From Maricaulis sp. (lineage in GTDB: Bacteria > Pseudomonadota > Alphaproteobacteria > Caulobacterales > Maricaulaceae), in assembly GCA_017643585.1 (NCBI GenBank), contig JAEPND010000014.1, positions 2,270 through 63,782 on the forward strand: a DNA stretch of 61,513 bases, given 5' to 3'. The position numbers and the translations under genes were made by a program. Positions 33,922 through 36,858 of this stretch are shown here, in pieces. The notes under the pieces were generated by a model. The model was given only the letters and a program-made list of their open reading frames with translations. It made no database searches and was not told the origin of the DNA. How positions within the stretch are numbered: position 1 is the stretch's first letter; each line of letters opens with the position of its first letter.

Positions 33922-34836
33922 ATGAAACTGCGTGATTTTCTCGCCCTGGTCGCGGTCTGCGTCGTGTGGGGTCTCAATTTTGTCGTGGCGAAATTCTCGG
34001 TCACCGGCGCGCCTGGCTGGGTGCCCGGGTTTGAGGGCACGCCACCGATATTCTTTGCCTTCATGCGGTTTGCCCTGTTGTACGCGTTTCTGGCCCCGTG
34101 GCTCCGGCCCGGACCGACCGACATGAAAACCATGATCGGTGTCGCGCTGTGTATGGGCGCGCTGCAATACGTCCTGATCTTTTTCGGCCTGCAGACCGCT
34201 ACCCCCTCGGGGATGGCCATTGCCCTGCAGCTTGGGGTGCCGTTTGCGACCATCCTCTCGGTCTTCATGCTGAAAGAGCAGATCGGCAAAGTCCGATTGG
34301 CAGGCATCGTCATCGCCTTTGGTGGAATCATGCTCGTCGTCATCGACCCGCAGGGCGCAACACTTGAACTGGGATTGATGATTGGCGTGGCCGCCGCCTT
34401 TGTCGGCGCTTTGGGCATGATCCTGGTCAAGCGAATGCCGCTCGATTCCATCCGGATGCAGGCCTGGATCGGGTTATTGTCGTGGCCGCCTTTGCTCATT
34501 CTCTCGCTGCTGACGGAGCAGGATCAGATTTCCGCTGCTCTCAGCGGTGGGTGGCTGTTCCTGGCCGCATTGTTGTTCACGGTCGTACTGGTCAATATTT
34601 TCGGACACGGTGTCTTCTATTATCTCCTGCAAAAGTATGATGCGACGCTGATTGCGCCGCTGACGCTGATGGCGCCTCTGGTCGGCGTGATTTCCGGTCT
34701 TGTGATCACCAATGACCCGGTCGGATGGCAATTGCTGGTGGGGGGCGGCCTTACCTTGTCCGGGGTCGGCATCATTGCCTTCCGACAGAACAAGAAGCTG
34801 CCGACGGCGGCGCTGGCGCGCGAGAAAACACTGTGA
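33922..34836 (+). CDS. EamA/DMT-family transporter
   Basis: 304 residues, about ten hydrophobic helices in two EamA repeats. The first helix begins FLALVAVCVVWGLNFVVAKFS, and the first repeat ends with GGIMLVVIDPQG. The second begins IGVAAAFVGALGMILVKR and ends with LTLSGVGIIAF. Drug/metabolite-family exporters of this size carry amino acids, purine-like metabolites or sugars; the substrate cannot be told. Its stop overlaps the amidase start by one base (TGATG), so the two are probably co-translated. Confidence 0.87.
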   Translation: MKLRDFLALVAVCVVWGLNFVVAKFSVTGAPGWVPGFEGTPPIFFAFMRFALLYAFLAPWLRPGPTDMKTMIGVALCMGALQYVLIFFGLQTATPSGMAIALQLGVPFATILSVFMLKEQIGKVRLAGIVIAFGGIMLVVIDPQGATLELGLMIGVAAAFVGALGMILVKRMPLDSIRMQAWIGLLSWPPLLILSLLTEQDQISAALSGGWLFLAALLFTVVLVNIFGHGVFYYLLQKYDATLIAPLTLMAPLVGVISGLVITNDPVGWQLLVGGGLTLSGVGIIAFRQNKKLPTAALAREKTL

Positions 34837-35501
34837 TGTCCGGGGTCATCGACGCGCCGTCACCAAATTTCAATGAGCGAAAACTGCCGATATCGCTCAT
34901 CATCCTGCACTATACGGGGATGGAAAGCGGCGATGTCGCCCTGCAGCGCATGTGTGAGCCGCAGGCGCAGGTCTCGGCTCACTACATGGTGGAGGTAGAC
35001 GGGCGTGTTTTCCGCCTGGTTGCCGATGAGAAACGTGCCTGGCATGCCGGGGTGAGTTATTGGCACGGAGAGCGGGATATCAACTCGGCCTCGATTGGCA
35101 TCGAGATCGTCAATGGCGGACATGATTTCGGGTTGCCGGCCTATCCCGAGACACAGATCGATGCGGTTATCCAGCTCGTGAAGCGATTGATGGCCGAGCA
35201 CGGGCTTTCGCCGGACTGCGTTATCGGGCACTCCGATATTGCGGTCGAGCGCAAGGAGGATCCGGGCGAGCATTTCCCCTGGCAGCGATTGGCCGCGGAA
35301 GGTTGCGCGCTCGCTCTGGCTGCTGAGGGGCCGAGCGAGGATCCGGAGGCGGACCTCATTCGGGCCGGCTATAATCCGGACGCGCCGGTCGAGGATACGG
35401 TCAAGGCATTCCAACGCCGCCATCGCCAGACGTGTATCGATGGACAGATTGATACAGAGACTTCTGCCCTGATCCGTGCTGCGGCCCTGGCGGGGCGGTG
35501 A
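34836..35501 (+). CDS. amiD: AmiD-like N-acetylmuramoyl-L-alanine amidase with peptidoglycan-binding domain
   Basis: 221 residues. The Amidase_2 zinc domain includes LIILHYTGM, SAHYMVEVDGRVFRLV, KRAWHAGVS, SIGIEIVNGGHD, and the distal GHSDIAVERKEDPGEHFPW motif with zinc His. The C terminus (about 165-221) is a peptidoglycan-binding repeat (LIRAGYNP, VKAFQRRHR). It cleaves the bond between MurNAc and L-Ala, mainly in recycling of anhydro-muropeptides. No signal peptide is visible from ATG 34836, so either it acts in the cytoplasm like AmpD or the start lies elsewhere. The gene symbol is by domain similarity. Confidence 0.85.
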   Translation: MSGVIDAPSPNFNERKLPISLIILHYTGMESGDVALQRMCEPQAQVSAHYMVEVDGRVFRLVADEKRAWHAGVSYWHGERDINSASIGIEIVNGGHDFGLPAYPETQIDAVIQLVKRLMAEHGLSPDCVIGHSDIAVERKEDPGEHFPWQRLAAEGCALALAAEGPSEDPEADLIRAGYNPDAPVEDTVKAFQRRHRQTCIDGQIDTETSALIRAAALAGR

Positions 35502-35532
35502 TCGTCAGCAGGCCAGTCGCGCGACCGCGGGG

Positions 35533-35645
35533 AAAACGAAGGGCGGTGAATGCCTTCACCGCCCCCGCTGCCTCTTCAGGCTAAACGTCTCGCGGGTGCT
35601 CGTGACTTCACTCCTGGAGACTAGCCGGAACTCTAGAAATTCCGG
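35533..35645 (-). ncRNA. Candidate small RNA, copy B of a tandem pair
   Basis: On the minus strand a 5' hairpin (CCGGAA, 9-nt loop TTTCTAGAG, TTCCGG; 35625-35645) is followed by a block shared with copy A (CCAGGAGTGAAGTCACGAGC plus ACCC), a small GCCT-GAAG-AGGC hairpin, and a terminator hairpin GGGCGGTGAA-GGCA-TTCACCGCCC (35541-35564) running into TTCGTTTTCCCC. The structure resembles a free-standing sRNA of about 110 nt. Only an 11-codon frame exists in the shared block. No known family was recognised. The 5' end and promoter are uncertain. Confidence 0.6.
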
Positions 35646-35650
35646 ATCCA

Positions 35651-35850
35651 TGGGTCGGGACGGTGGATAGAATGAGCGCGTGCAAACGTGTTTTCACGCC
35701 CGCAATCACGCTTGAACCAAGGAGGGTGCCGCCATCCCGCTCTTGATACGTTCACATAGGCAAGTTTCCGGCGCTGTCGAGTGCTGTCTTGTCCGCCTGC
35801 CGGGTACCCGTTCGGCGCGGGGCAAGGGCGTGCGTGTTTCGCTGGGCAGG
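35651..35850. other. Spacer between the two small-RNA candidates
   Basis: About 200 bp with no convincing ORF, no terminator and no homology to the two flanking repeats. It presumably contains the promoter of copy B (a weak TTCTAT-type element near 35670) and the run-off of copy A. Confidence 0.4.
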
Positions 35851-35856
35851 GGAAAA

Positions 35857-35981
35857 GCAAAAGAGACGATGGCTAAAGCCACCGTCTCTTCGCTACCTCG
35901 GAGGGAGGTAATTCGCCCGTTGGGTGCTCGTGACTTCACTCCTGGGGCTCACCGGGACCCTAGAAATCCCAGCTATTTCAT
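35857..35981 (-). ncRNA. Candidate small RNA, copy A of a tandem pair
   Basis: On the minus strand a 5' hairpin (CTGGGA, 9-nt loop TTTCTAGGG, TCCCGG; 35952-35972) preserves the stem of copy B through compensatory changes. The shared CCAGGAGTGAAGTCACGAGC block follows, then a hairpin ACCTC-CCTCC-GAGGT exposing a CU-rich loop, and a terminator hairpin AGAGACGGTGGCT/AGCCATCGTCTCT followed by TTTTGCTTTT. A TATCAT -10-like element lies at 35988-35993, which would start the RNA near 35981. A 77-codon frame starting in the shared block is not conserved in copy B. Confidence 0.62.
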
Positions 35982-35993
35982 TTTCGAATGATA

Positions 35994-36430
35994 CGCGATG
36001 CCTGGTCGATCAATCATGAACGCGCCACTGAAGGCCCATCGTAAATGATCGTTGGAATATTCTGCTATACATCCCTCCAGGACGGCGCAAACCATCCATT
36101 GCGATTAGACACAAAGGAAAGAAGTCCGGATCAACGCTTCCGGCCGCCTTAAGCACAGACACCTGCACAACATGGACAATATTGCCCGAGCAGTCGTGTG
36201 GTGTGCCTGTAACTCGATCCTTCCCTTTTCAGCGCTTCCCCAAGCGCATGTACACGCTGGCTCACACCTCCGTGATCGTCAATGAGCAAACTGTAATATT
36301 TCCGACAGTCTTCTGCGATTGGATACAAAATCCGCATTCTGTTGCAGGAACGTCACATGGCGGTTTCGTAACCAAACCATCGGAGCATTTCTTGTGTATA
36401 TTCTAGAACCTGATCGCCTGATTTGAGGCC
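35994..36430. other. Gene-poor, relatively AT-rich spacer
   Basis: Between copy A's promoter and the rnpB promoter I see no supported gene. A 62-codon minus-strand frame (36149-36337) has no good ribosome site and unremarkable composition. Base composition is noticeably less GC-rich than the flanks, which may mean regulatory or foreign DNA, or an unrecognised RNA. Confidence 0.5.
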
Positions 36431-36433
36431 GGC

Positions 36434-36462
36434 TTGCCAATCTGAGTCGGATGCGCTTTAAG
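36434..36462 (+). promoter_or_regulatory. Probable sigma-70-type promoter of rnpB
   Basis: TTGCCA (36434-36439), a 17-bp spacer, then TTTAAG (36457-36462). The expected start, about 7 bases on, coincides with the first base of the rnpB P1 helix (36469). Confidence 0.65.
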
Positions 36463-36468
36463 CGCGCT

Positions 36469-36858
<390 letters not shown>

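Follow-up and report, generated by a model that had tools for sequence, protein, structure and literature searches.

Two tandem structured RNAs of Maricaulis stem from the 3′ UTR of a TonB-dependent receptor gene lost in one of two sister species

Two structured elements, A and B, are encoded in tandem on the minus strand of a 61,513-bp stretch of the Maricaulis sp. contig JAEPND010000014.1 (hereafter, the window), and a previous reading of the sequence alone had described them as a pair of paralogous small-RNA candidates of no recognised family. This locus raises the question of what kind of RNA the two elements represent, where they come from and on what they might act. Both elements are present (Table 1) and follow the same plan, with helices P1 and P2, an inner stem, a 24-nt identical block and a terminator, and both fold better than shuffled sequences (for A, z -4.5, with none of 200 shuffles as good; for B, z -3.6, with one of 200 as good). 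The folds follow one another as P1, P2 (which encloses the identical block), the variable hairpin P3 and the terminator; P2, which is formed by GCCC/GGGC in A and by GTCTC/GAGAC in B, was missing from the sequence-only description. A 20-nt portion of the identical block occurs exactly twice in the window, at positions 35598-35617 and 35926-35945 (0 in 100 shuffles), and only twice in the whole 3.1-Mb genome even when up to 3 mismatches are allowed; the identity between A and B extends beyond this portion to 24 nt, CCAGGAGTGAAGTCACGAGCACCC. The block includes the loop AAGUCACGAG, which is predicted to be open in A (unpaired probability 0.87-1.0) and mostly open in B (0.65-1.0). The exposed CCTCC loop that had been reported for A is indeed found in A only. 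No sigma-70-like promoter was found in the region 35450-36500. In the otherwise diverged spacer between A and B, a 15-nt patch, GGGATGGCGGCACCC (35724-35738, minus strand), is identical in the window genome and its sister species; it lies about 75-90 nt before B and possibly belongs to a control region of B's own.

Table 1. Features of the A/B locus in the window (all on the minus strand; G188, sister Maricaulis species)
Feature	Position	Strand	Evidence
Element A, whole structured RNA; begins with the final codons of the lost receptor gene (SWDF*) and runs to the terminator tail	35853..35974	-	
A, hairpin P1: 6-bp stem, loop TTTCTAGGG with the former Phe codon and TAG stop	35952..35972	-	
A, helix P2 and inner stem around the invariant block	35915..35948	-	
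A, 10-nt loop AAGUCACGAG, predicted unpaired	35927-35936	-	unpaired probability 0.87-1.0
A, region of hairpin P3, GAAUUACCUCCCUCCGAGGUAGCGAA, with CCUCC in the loop; antisense to the G188 receptor mRNA at its start site	35889..35914	-	
A, intrinsic terminator and T-rich tail	35853..35889	-	terminator scan; 12/12 pairs kept in 4 copies
Element B, paralogue sharing P1, P2, the invariant block and the terminator with A; its P3 differs and lacks CCTCC	35533..35647	-	
B, invariant 20-nt block	35598..35617	-	exact match
93-bp stretch in place of the ~3 kb receptor coding sequence of G188; probably a decayed remnant	35975..36067	-	
Retained leader of the lost receptor gene, Shine-Dalgarno GGAGGG, no start codon	36068..36112	-	41/46 columns identical to G188
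Conserved upstream block, candidate promoter/regulatory region of the lost gene	36219..36347	-	109/133 columns identical to G188

Homologues were detected in a single other species. A search for the exact 19-nt core in a set with one genome for each of 84,980 species, which possibly lacks the window's own genome, retrieved one record, the Maricaulis MAG NZ_JAEPNI010000001.1 (taken here as G188), in which the core again occurs as a pair. A covariance model, R1, was built from the four available copies, namely A and B of the window genome (G000) and A and B of G188; among 19 genomes of the genus and 137 genomes of the family, the latter searched with stricter filters, only these four copies score above 100 bits (A, 128 bits; B, 117.8 bits at 35530-35647), and these scores are not independent, being those of the sequences from which the model was built. 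The outcome that the sequence-only reading had named as refuting, a covariance search that finds neither homologues nor support for the 5′ stem, did not occur: homologues were found, in one other species only, and the 5′ stem is kept in all four copies. The next-best scores are 30.2 bits in the genus (E 1.8e-5, the E-values of this model being rough) and 32.1 bits in the family. The genus search produced 77 matches, 4 of which are the true copies, and some of the other 73 are antisense to the elements' own terminators. Weak matches at receptor 3′ ends in G301 (contig C90, 22.2 bits) and G108 (contig C6, 25.6 bits) were discarded as they cover the terminator or P1 only and contain no core, and the same applies to the family match in G218 (32.1 bits), in which the terminator is present and the core absent. 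In an order-wide pattern search with up to 3 mismatches, 8 of the 299 genomes match, and with up to 2 mismatches only G000 and G188 do; each of the six other genomes has one match with 3 mismatches, no more than obtained with the reversed-pattern control (7), and one of these six matches, in G108, coincides with the beginning of a different reading frame. Plasmids and phages contain no match to element A, and viral contigs none to the 19-nt core. The A/B RNA is known only from two sister species.

The alignment of the four copies fits a single structure and supports the reading of A and B as a paralogous pair of structured RNAs. All 108 pair cells are standard, and 9 of the 27 pairs change on both sides, a count reached by 7 of 500 shuffles; the covariation score and the number of paired cells lie above all 500 shuffles, and one of the five covariation measures, further pair types, is not above chance (248/500 shuffles). 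When the pairing partners are slid by 1-3 columns, pairing falls to 38-52%. All these values derive from four sequences of two species, and the structure was drawn from the same sequences. In P1, all six pairs are kept in the four copies and two of them change on both sides; the compensatory changes noted previously in the 5′ stem are real. Two of the four pairs of P2 show compensatory changes, and four of the five pairs of the inner stem are invariant. The terminator is one 12-bp helix in which five pairs are changed on both sides; its CGGTG core is common to all four copies, contrary to the claim that the terminator stems are unrelated in sequence. The comparison of orthologues between G000 and G188 gives the same picture, with all changed pairs still paired (7/7 in A and 5/5 in B) and 4 of these 12 being double changes. 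The counterpart in the sister species resembles A, and likewise B, more closely than A and B resemble each other, which implies that the duplication predates the split of the two species. The structure of the RNA and its origin, described below, are well supported.

Copy A of G188 forms the 3′ end of the gene for a TonB-dependent receptor of 1003 aa, the open reading frame of which lies on the same strand and ends inside P1. The gene terminates with AGC TGG GAT TTC TAG (SWDF*), so that the TTTCTAG of the P1 loop contains the last Phe codon and the stop codon. The 5′ loop, originally perceived as an RNA motif, is therefore a conserved hairpin loop but also a codon and stop of a former gene. The receptor contains the TonB receptor plug, the TonB-dependent-receptor barrel and a carboxypeptidase-regulatory-like domain of Pfam. 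Copy A of G188 constitutes the 3′ end of an mRNA and carries the terminator of that mRNA, which is the arrangement of 3′-UTR-derived RNAs; the elements are structured RNAs, as suggested by the designation as small-RNA candidates, but they originate in the 3′ UTR of a receptor gene, which G188 still has in intact form. The same receptor, 74-75% identical, is found at the same place in G301 and also ends with SWDF*, with a shorter 3′ UTR that consists of a plain terminator and no core. As for B, no minus-strand open reading frame of at least 80 aa in the window, or of at least 90 aa in G188, ends ahead of it.

The window genome encodes no orthologue of the receptor (best match 84 bits, 28% identity, query positions 18-317). 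It aligns with G188 on both sides of the gene, with the leader and an upstream block on one side and A and B on the other; the leader, the last codons, A and B are thus retained, and ~3 kb of coding sequence are gone from the locus, which is located between an amidase gene and rnpB. The 93-bp stretch found instead is not repeated elsewhere in the genome except for a match of 15 nt. Over its last 30 nt it agrees with the coding end of G188 at 15 of 30 positions, a score reached at 5 of 2968 positions of the coding sequence, and the 10 nt before P1 are identical to G188 at 1 of 10 positions compared to 15 of 15 in the next 15 nt; these values indicate that the stretch is probably a decayed remnant of the coding sequence. 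The upstream block is possibly the promoter and operator of the receptor gene; in a blastn search with 36200-36380 against the rnpB loci of 16 other Maricaulis genomes, only G188 matched. This block includes TTACAGTTTGC, CATTGACG and the inverted repeat GCGCTTGGGGAAGCGC, and in G188 it contains a perfect 18-bp palindrome, GCTCACGGATCCGTGAGC, that is degenerate in the window genome.

To gauge the constraint on the retained parts, the two sister species were compared across the locus and its neighbours, which were checked against Pfam (EamA, Amidase_2, MraZ and MraW methylase, along with Band_7 for an SPFH gene considered below). At 4-fold degenerate sites, the identity between G000 and G188 is 79/171 in the EamA gene, 48/87 in MraZ, 104/174 in RsmH and 30/85 in the amidase gene; the corresponding values are 133/286 columns for the spacer between A and B and 53/104 for the 100 nt that precede the leader. 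Above this background are A (106/123 alignment columns), B (97/121), the leader (41/46) and rnpB (359/390). Since the window genome still carries a conserved old leader, the gene may have been lost only recently, and A may owe its conservation to the time before that event; the conserved leader fits either a part of a working transcript or a gene lost too recently for erosion. The Amidase_2 gene (34725-35501, plus strand), which we take to be AmpD-like, diverges faster between the sister species than the three other neighbours.

What the element might do in the presence of its gene is suggested by P3, the 26 nt of which are identical in A of both species. In G188, P3 of A forms an antisense duplex with the leader of its own receptor mRNA, spanning from GCUGCC through GGAGGGA to GUAAU at the start codon, with a predicted energy of -31.5 kcal/mol that is attained by none of 2000 shuffles of either partner. 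For P3 alone, this leader ranks 1 of 44 and 1 of 115 (the genes of the latter set were called crudely). When the antisense of P3 itself is set aside, the best 50-nt stretch of the 61.5-kb window reaches -28.5, and no other place in the 9 kb around the G188 gene equals -31.5 kcal/mol. P3 was chosen for its CCUCC loop; in the unbiased scan of all 26-nt windows of the G188 3′ UTR, the leader of the same gene ranks 4 of 145, and for the whole 3′ UTR, 6 of 500 shuffled leaders do as well. The test with checked starts comprised six genes including G188, leaving out G138 C1, G301 C47 and G138 C29; in the five homologous genes, the own leader ranks 1 (G108, GC-rich), 21, 103, 126 and 127 of 145. Given the ranks in G188 and the four homologues without a preference for their own leader, self-pairing appears likely in G188 and not general. 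In the window genome, A pairs with the old leader, from which the start codon is lost, at -23.9 kcal/mol (17/2000 shuffles; rank 6 of 115).

Based on these observations, the elements are best explained, with a probability of roughly 0.55, as an autorepressor located in a 3′ UTR, probably an sRNA comparable to OppZ and CarZ, that was orphaned by the loss of its gene and kept. The structure, the homology, the gene loss and the complementarity of P3 to the leader can be read directly from the genomes, and what follows about transcription, processing, repression and function after the loss is inferred. Copy A of G188 would start in the last codons of the receptor gene, with P1 closing over the stop codon, the loop AAGUCACGAG exposed and a terminator of its own. 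It could provide post-transcriptional negative feedback, either as the 3′ end in place or after release near the stop codon as an sRNA of ~120 nt; P3 would block translation by pairing with the receptor mRNA over its Shine-Dalgarno and start region. With the stop codon inside P1, terminating ribosomes might open this helix and in this way couple maturation of the RNA to translation. B, which lacks such a P3, would act through the shared loop AAGUCACGAG. The divergent targets previously proposed for the two paralogues are plausible with respect to P3, as A and B have different hairpins there, but a shared function is suggested as well by the open loop, which is identical in both. In the window genome, where the coding sequence is lost and the leader and both elements are kept, the RNA would be an orphan that could act only on other mRNAs. 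A further step, in which an sRNA locus was born from an mRNA, i.e., a self-repressing 3′ UTR was duplicated, the coding sequence was lost, and the leader and elements were selected as trans regulators of, e.g., the SPFH gene, is offered only tentatively.

This SPFH gene also figures in a different explanation that we regard as rather doubtful, namely that A and B are stand-alone trans-acting sRNAs, with the shared loop and the anti-Shine-Dalgarno loop of A as the active parts and the receptor gene reflecting mere ancestry. Such a role would agree with the loop being the same in all four copies and predicted to be open, and with the repression of TonB receptors by anti-Shine-Dalgarno sRNAs of Caulobacter, as described in part of the published account (PMC12559287). 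Outside the elements, the exact 10-nt complement of the loop occurs once in the window genome (contig C46, about 64425-64450), 25 to 16 nt upstream of the ATG of the Band_7/SPFH gene and beside its Shine-Dalgarno sequence, and the orthologous site of G188 (on contig C3) carries it as well; of the 18 Maricaulis genomes with the SPFH gene, the site is present in exactly the two RNA carriers and absent from the whole ~3.9 kb SPFH loci of the other 16. However, about 4 matches of this 10-mer are expected per genome by chance, as estimated from base composition, the reversed-pattern control yields 2 in G000 and 1 in G188, and the second real match in G188 falls inside a reading frame. Moreover, the two carriers form one clade, so the co-occurrence amounts to one event; the two species share 93.6% identity over the 3 kb around the SPFH gene, considerably more than in the genes that flank the RNA locus, and by the duplex energy of the core the SPFH leader ranks only 9 of 44. 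With one clade and a count near chance expectation, the match at the SPFH gene amounts to a prediction and not to evidence of a target.

Under a more conservative interpretation, which we consider unlikely, the elements are passive, being elaborate terminators or 3′-end stabilisers of the receptor mRNA, left in the window genome as an uneroded relic. Both A and B do end in well-kept terminators, the old leader without its gene is conserved too, as expected after a recent loss, and the receptor of G301 at the same place makes do with a plain terminator without the core. Nevertheless, a 24-nt invariant block inside a covarying helix is superfluous for a terminator or stabiliser, B keeps every pair though no gene precedes it in either species, and the window sequence just before P1 looks decayed rather than fresh. 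A short peptide encoded by the conserved block (AGGAG, then GTG AAG TCA CGA GCA ...) is highly improbable: a Shine-Dalgarno-like GGAG and an in-frame GTG are present in all four copies, but the Shine-Dalgarno overlaps with the start codon, the frames further downstream are not alike and terminate differently (B reaches a stop after 11 codons, whereas the B copy of G188 has a long frame, L034 2446-2922) and the changes follow base pairing. This reading was rejected on these grounds.

If A and B are indeed an orphaned autorepressor, they would work most like OppZ and CarZ, the autoregulatory 3′-UTR-derived sRNAs of Vibrio cholerae (PMC7398697, PMC9438474), and resemble SisA-D and ChvR in what such RNAs regulate. 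As far as the portions of these publications considered here describe them, OppZ and CarZ are RNAs from an mRNA 3′ end (in the case of OppZ, that of a transporter operon) that base-pair with their own transcript and inhibit its translation, which for A is a prediction only; A and B differ in deriving from a single TonB receptor gene of an alphaproteobacterium, in the 5′ hairpin over the stop codon, in the second tandem copy and in the absence of the parent gene from the window species. RNAs of this kind are characterised further by RNase E cleavage, with Hfq, that yields a stable sRNA. The alphaR8 RNAs of Caulobacter (SisA-D), in the excerpted account (PMC12559287), likewise comprise sibling copies with a terminator and an anti-Shine-Dalgarno stretch, and 9 of 10 letters are the same in UUACCUCCCU of A and the alphaR8 core UUUCCUCCCU. 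In A, however, this stretch is partly paired in P3, and in B it is lacking; P1, P2 and the loop AAGUCACGAG are not mentioned in that part of the description of alphaR8/SisA-D, and the neighbours there include a formylglutamate amidohydrolase gene, compared to the amidase gene and rnpB here. ChvR of Caulobacter crescentus, as outlined in part of the source (PMC6237742), is an sRNA of narrow distribution whose base pairing represses a TonB-dependent receptor; by description, A/B shares the narrow distribution and, as a prediction, this type of target, whereas ChvR is a separate gene acting in trans, unlike A at the 3′ end of the receptor gene.

None of the families tested has a definition that A/B satisfies in full. 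At gathering score, RNase P is the only match of Rfam 15 in the window, with none at A or B, in line with the initial view that the pair belongs to no recognised family; a sub-threshold match to the CsrC family at the elements (23.1 bits versus a gathering score of 279) is not credible. Membership in alphaR8 (SisA-D, MmgR) was rejected because the 10-nt single-stranded core is absent, with a partly paired counterpart in A and none in B, although the Rho-independent terminator typical of that family is present, as detected by the terminator scan in A and by the helix in all four copies. G000 has 3 exact copies of UUUCCUCCCU at other places, and none of them precedes a terminator-like hairpin and a T-run. 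In the openly accessible literature, the searches retrieved no 3′-UTR-derived sRNA associated with TonB receptors in alphaproteobacteria, no such RNA in Maricaulis (judging by titles and the beginnings of abstracts) and, among the matches listed, nothing fitting an sRNA that outlived its parent gene.

To our knowledge, few clear cases exist in which a 3′ UTR has become an RNA that lacks its parent gene. The two sister species compared here display the two states, a gene with its tail and a tail without its gene, and the paralogous pair separates the self-pairing part (P3, in A only) from the shared part (the core loop). What is new is the origin of A and B from a receptor gene, as well as an unusual 3′-UTR-derived regulatory RNA, putative in its activity, the parent gene of which is gone. 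A hairpin over the stop codon, CTGGGACTTCTGAGTCCCGG, is also found in a paralogous receptor gene of G108 (contig C6, near position 1770), and out of 145 leaders the best partner for the 3′ UTR of that gene is its own start site, through other, GC-rich letters.
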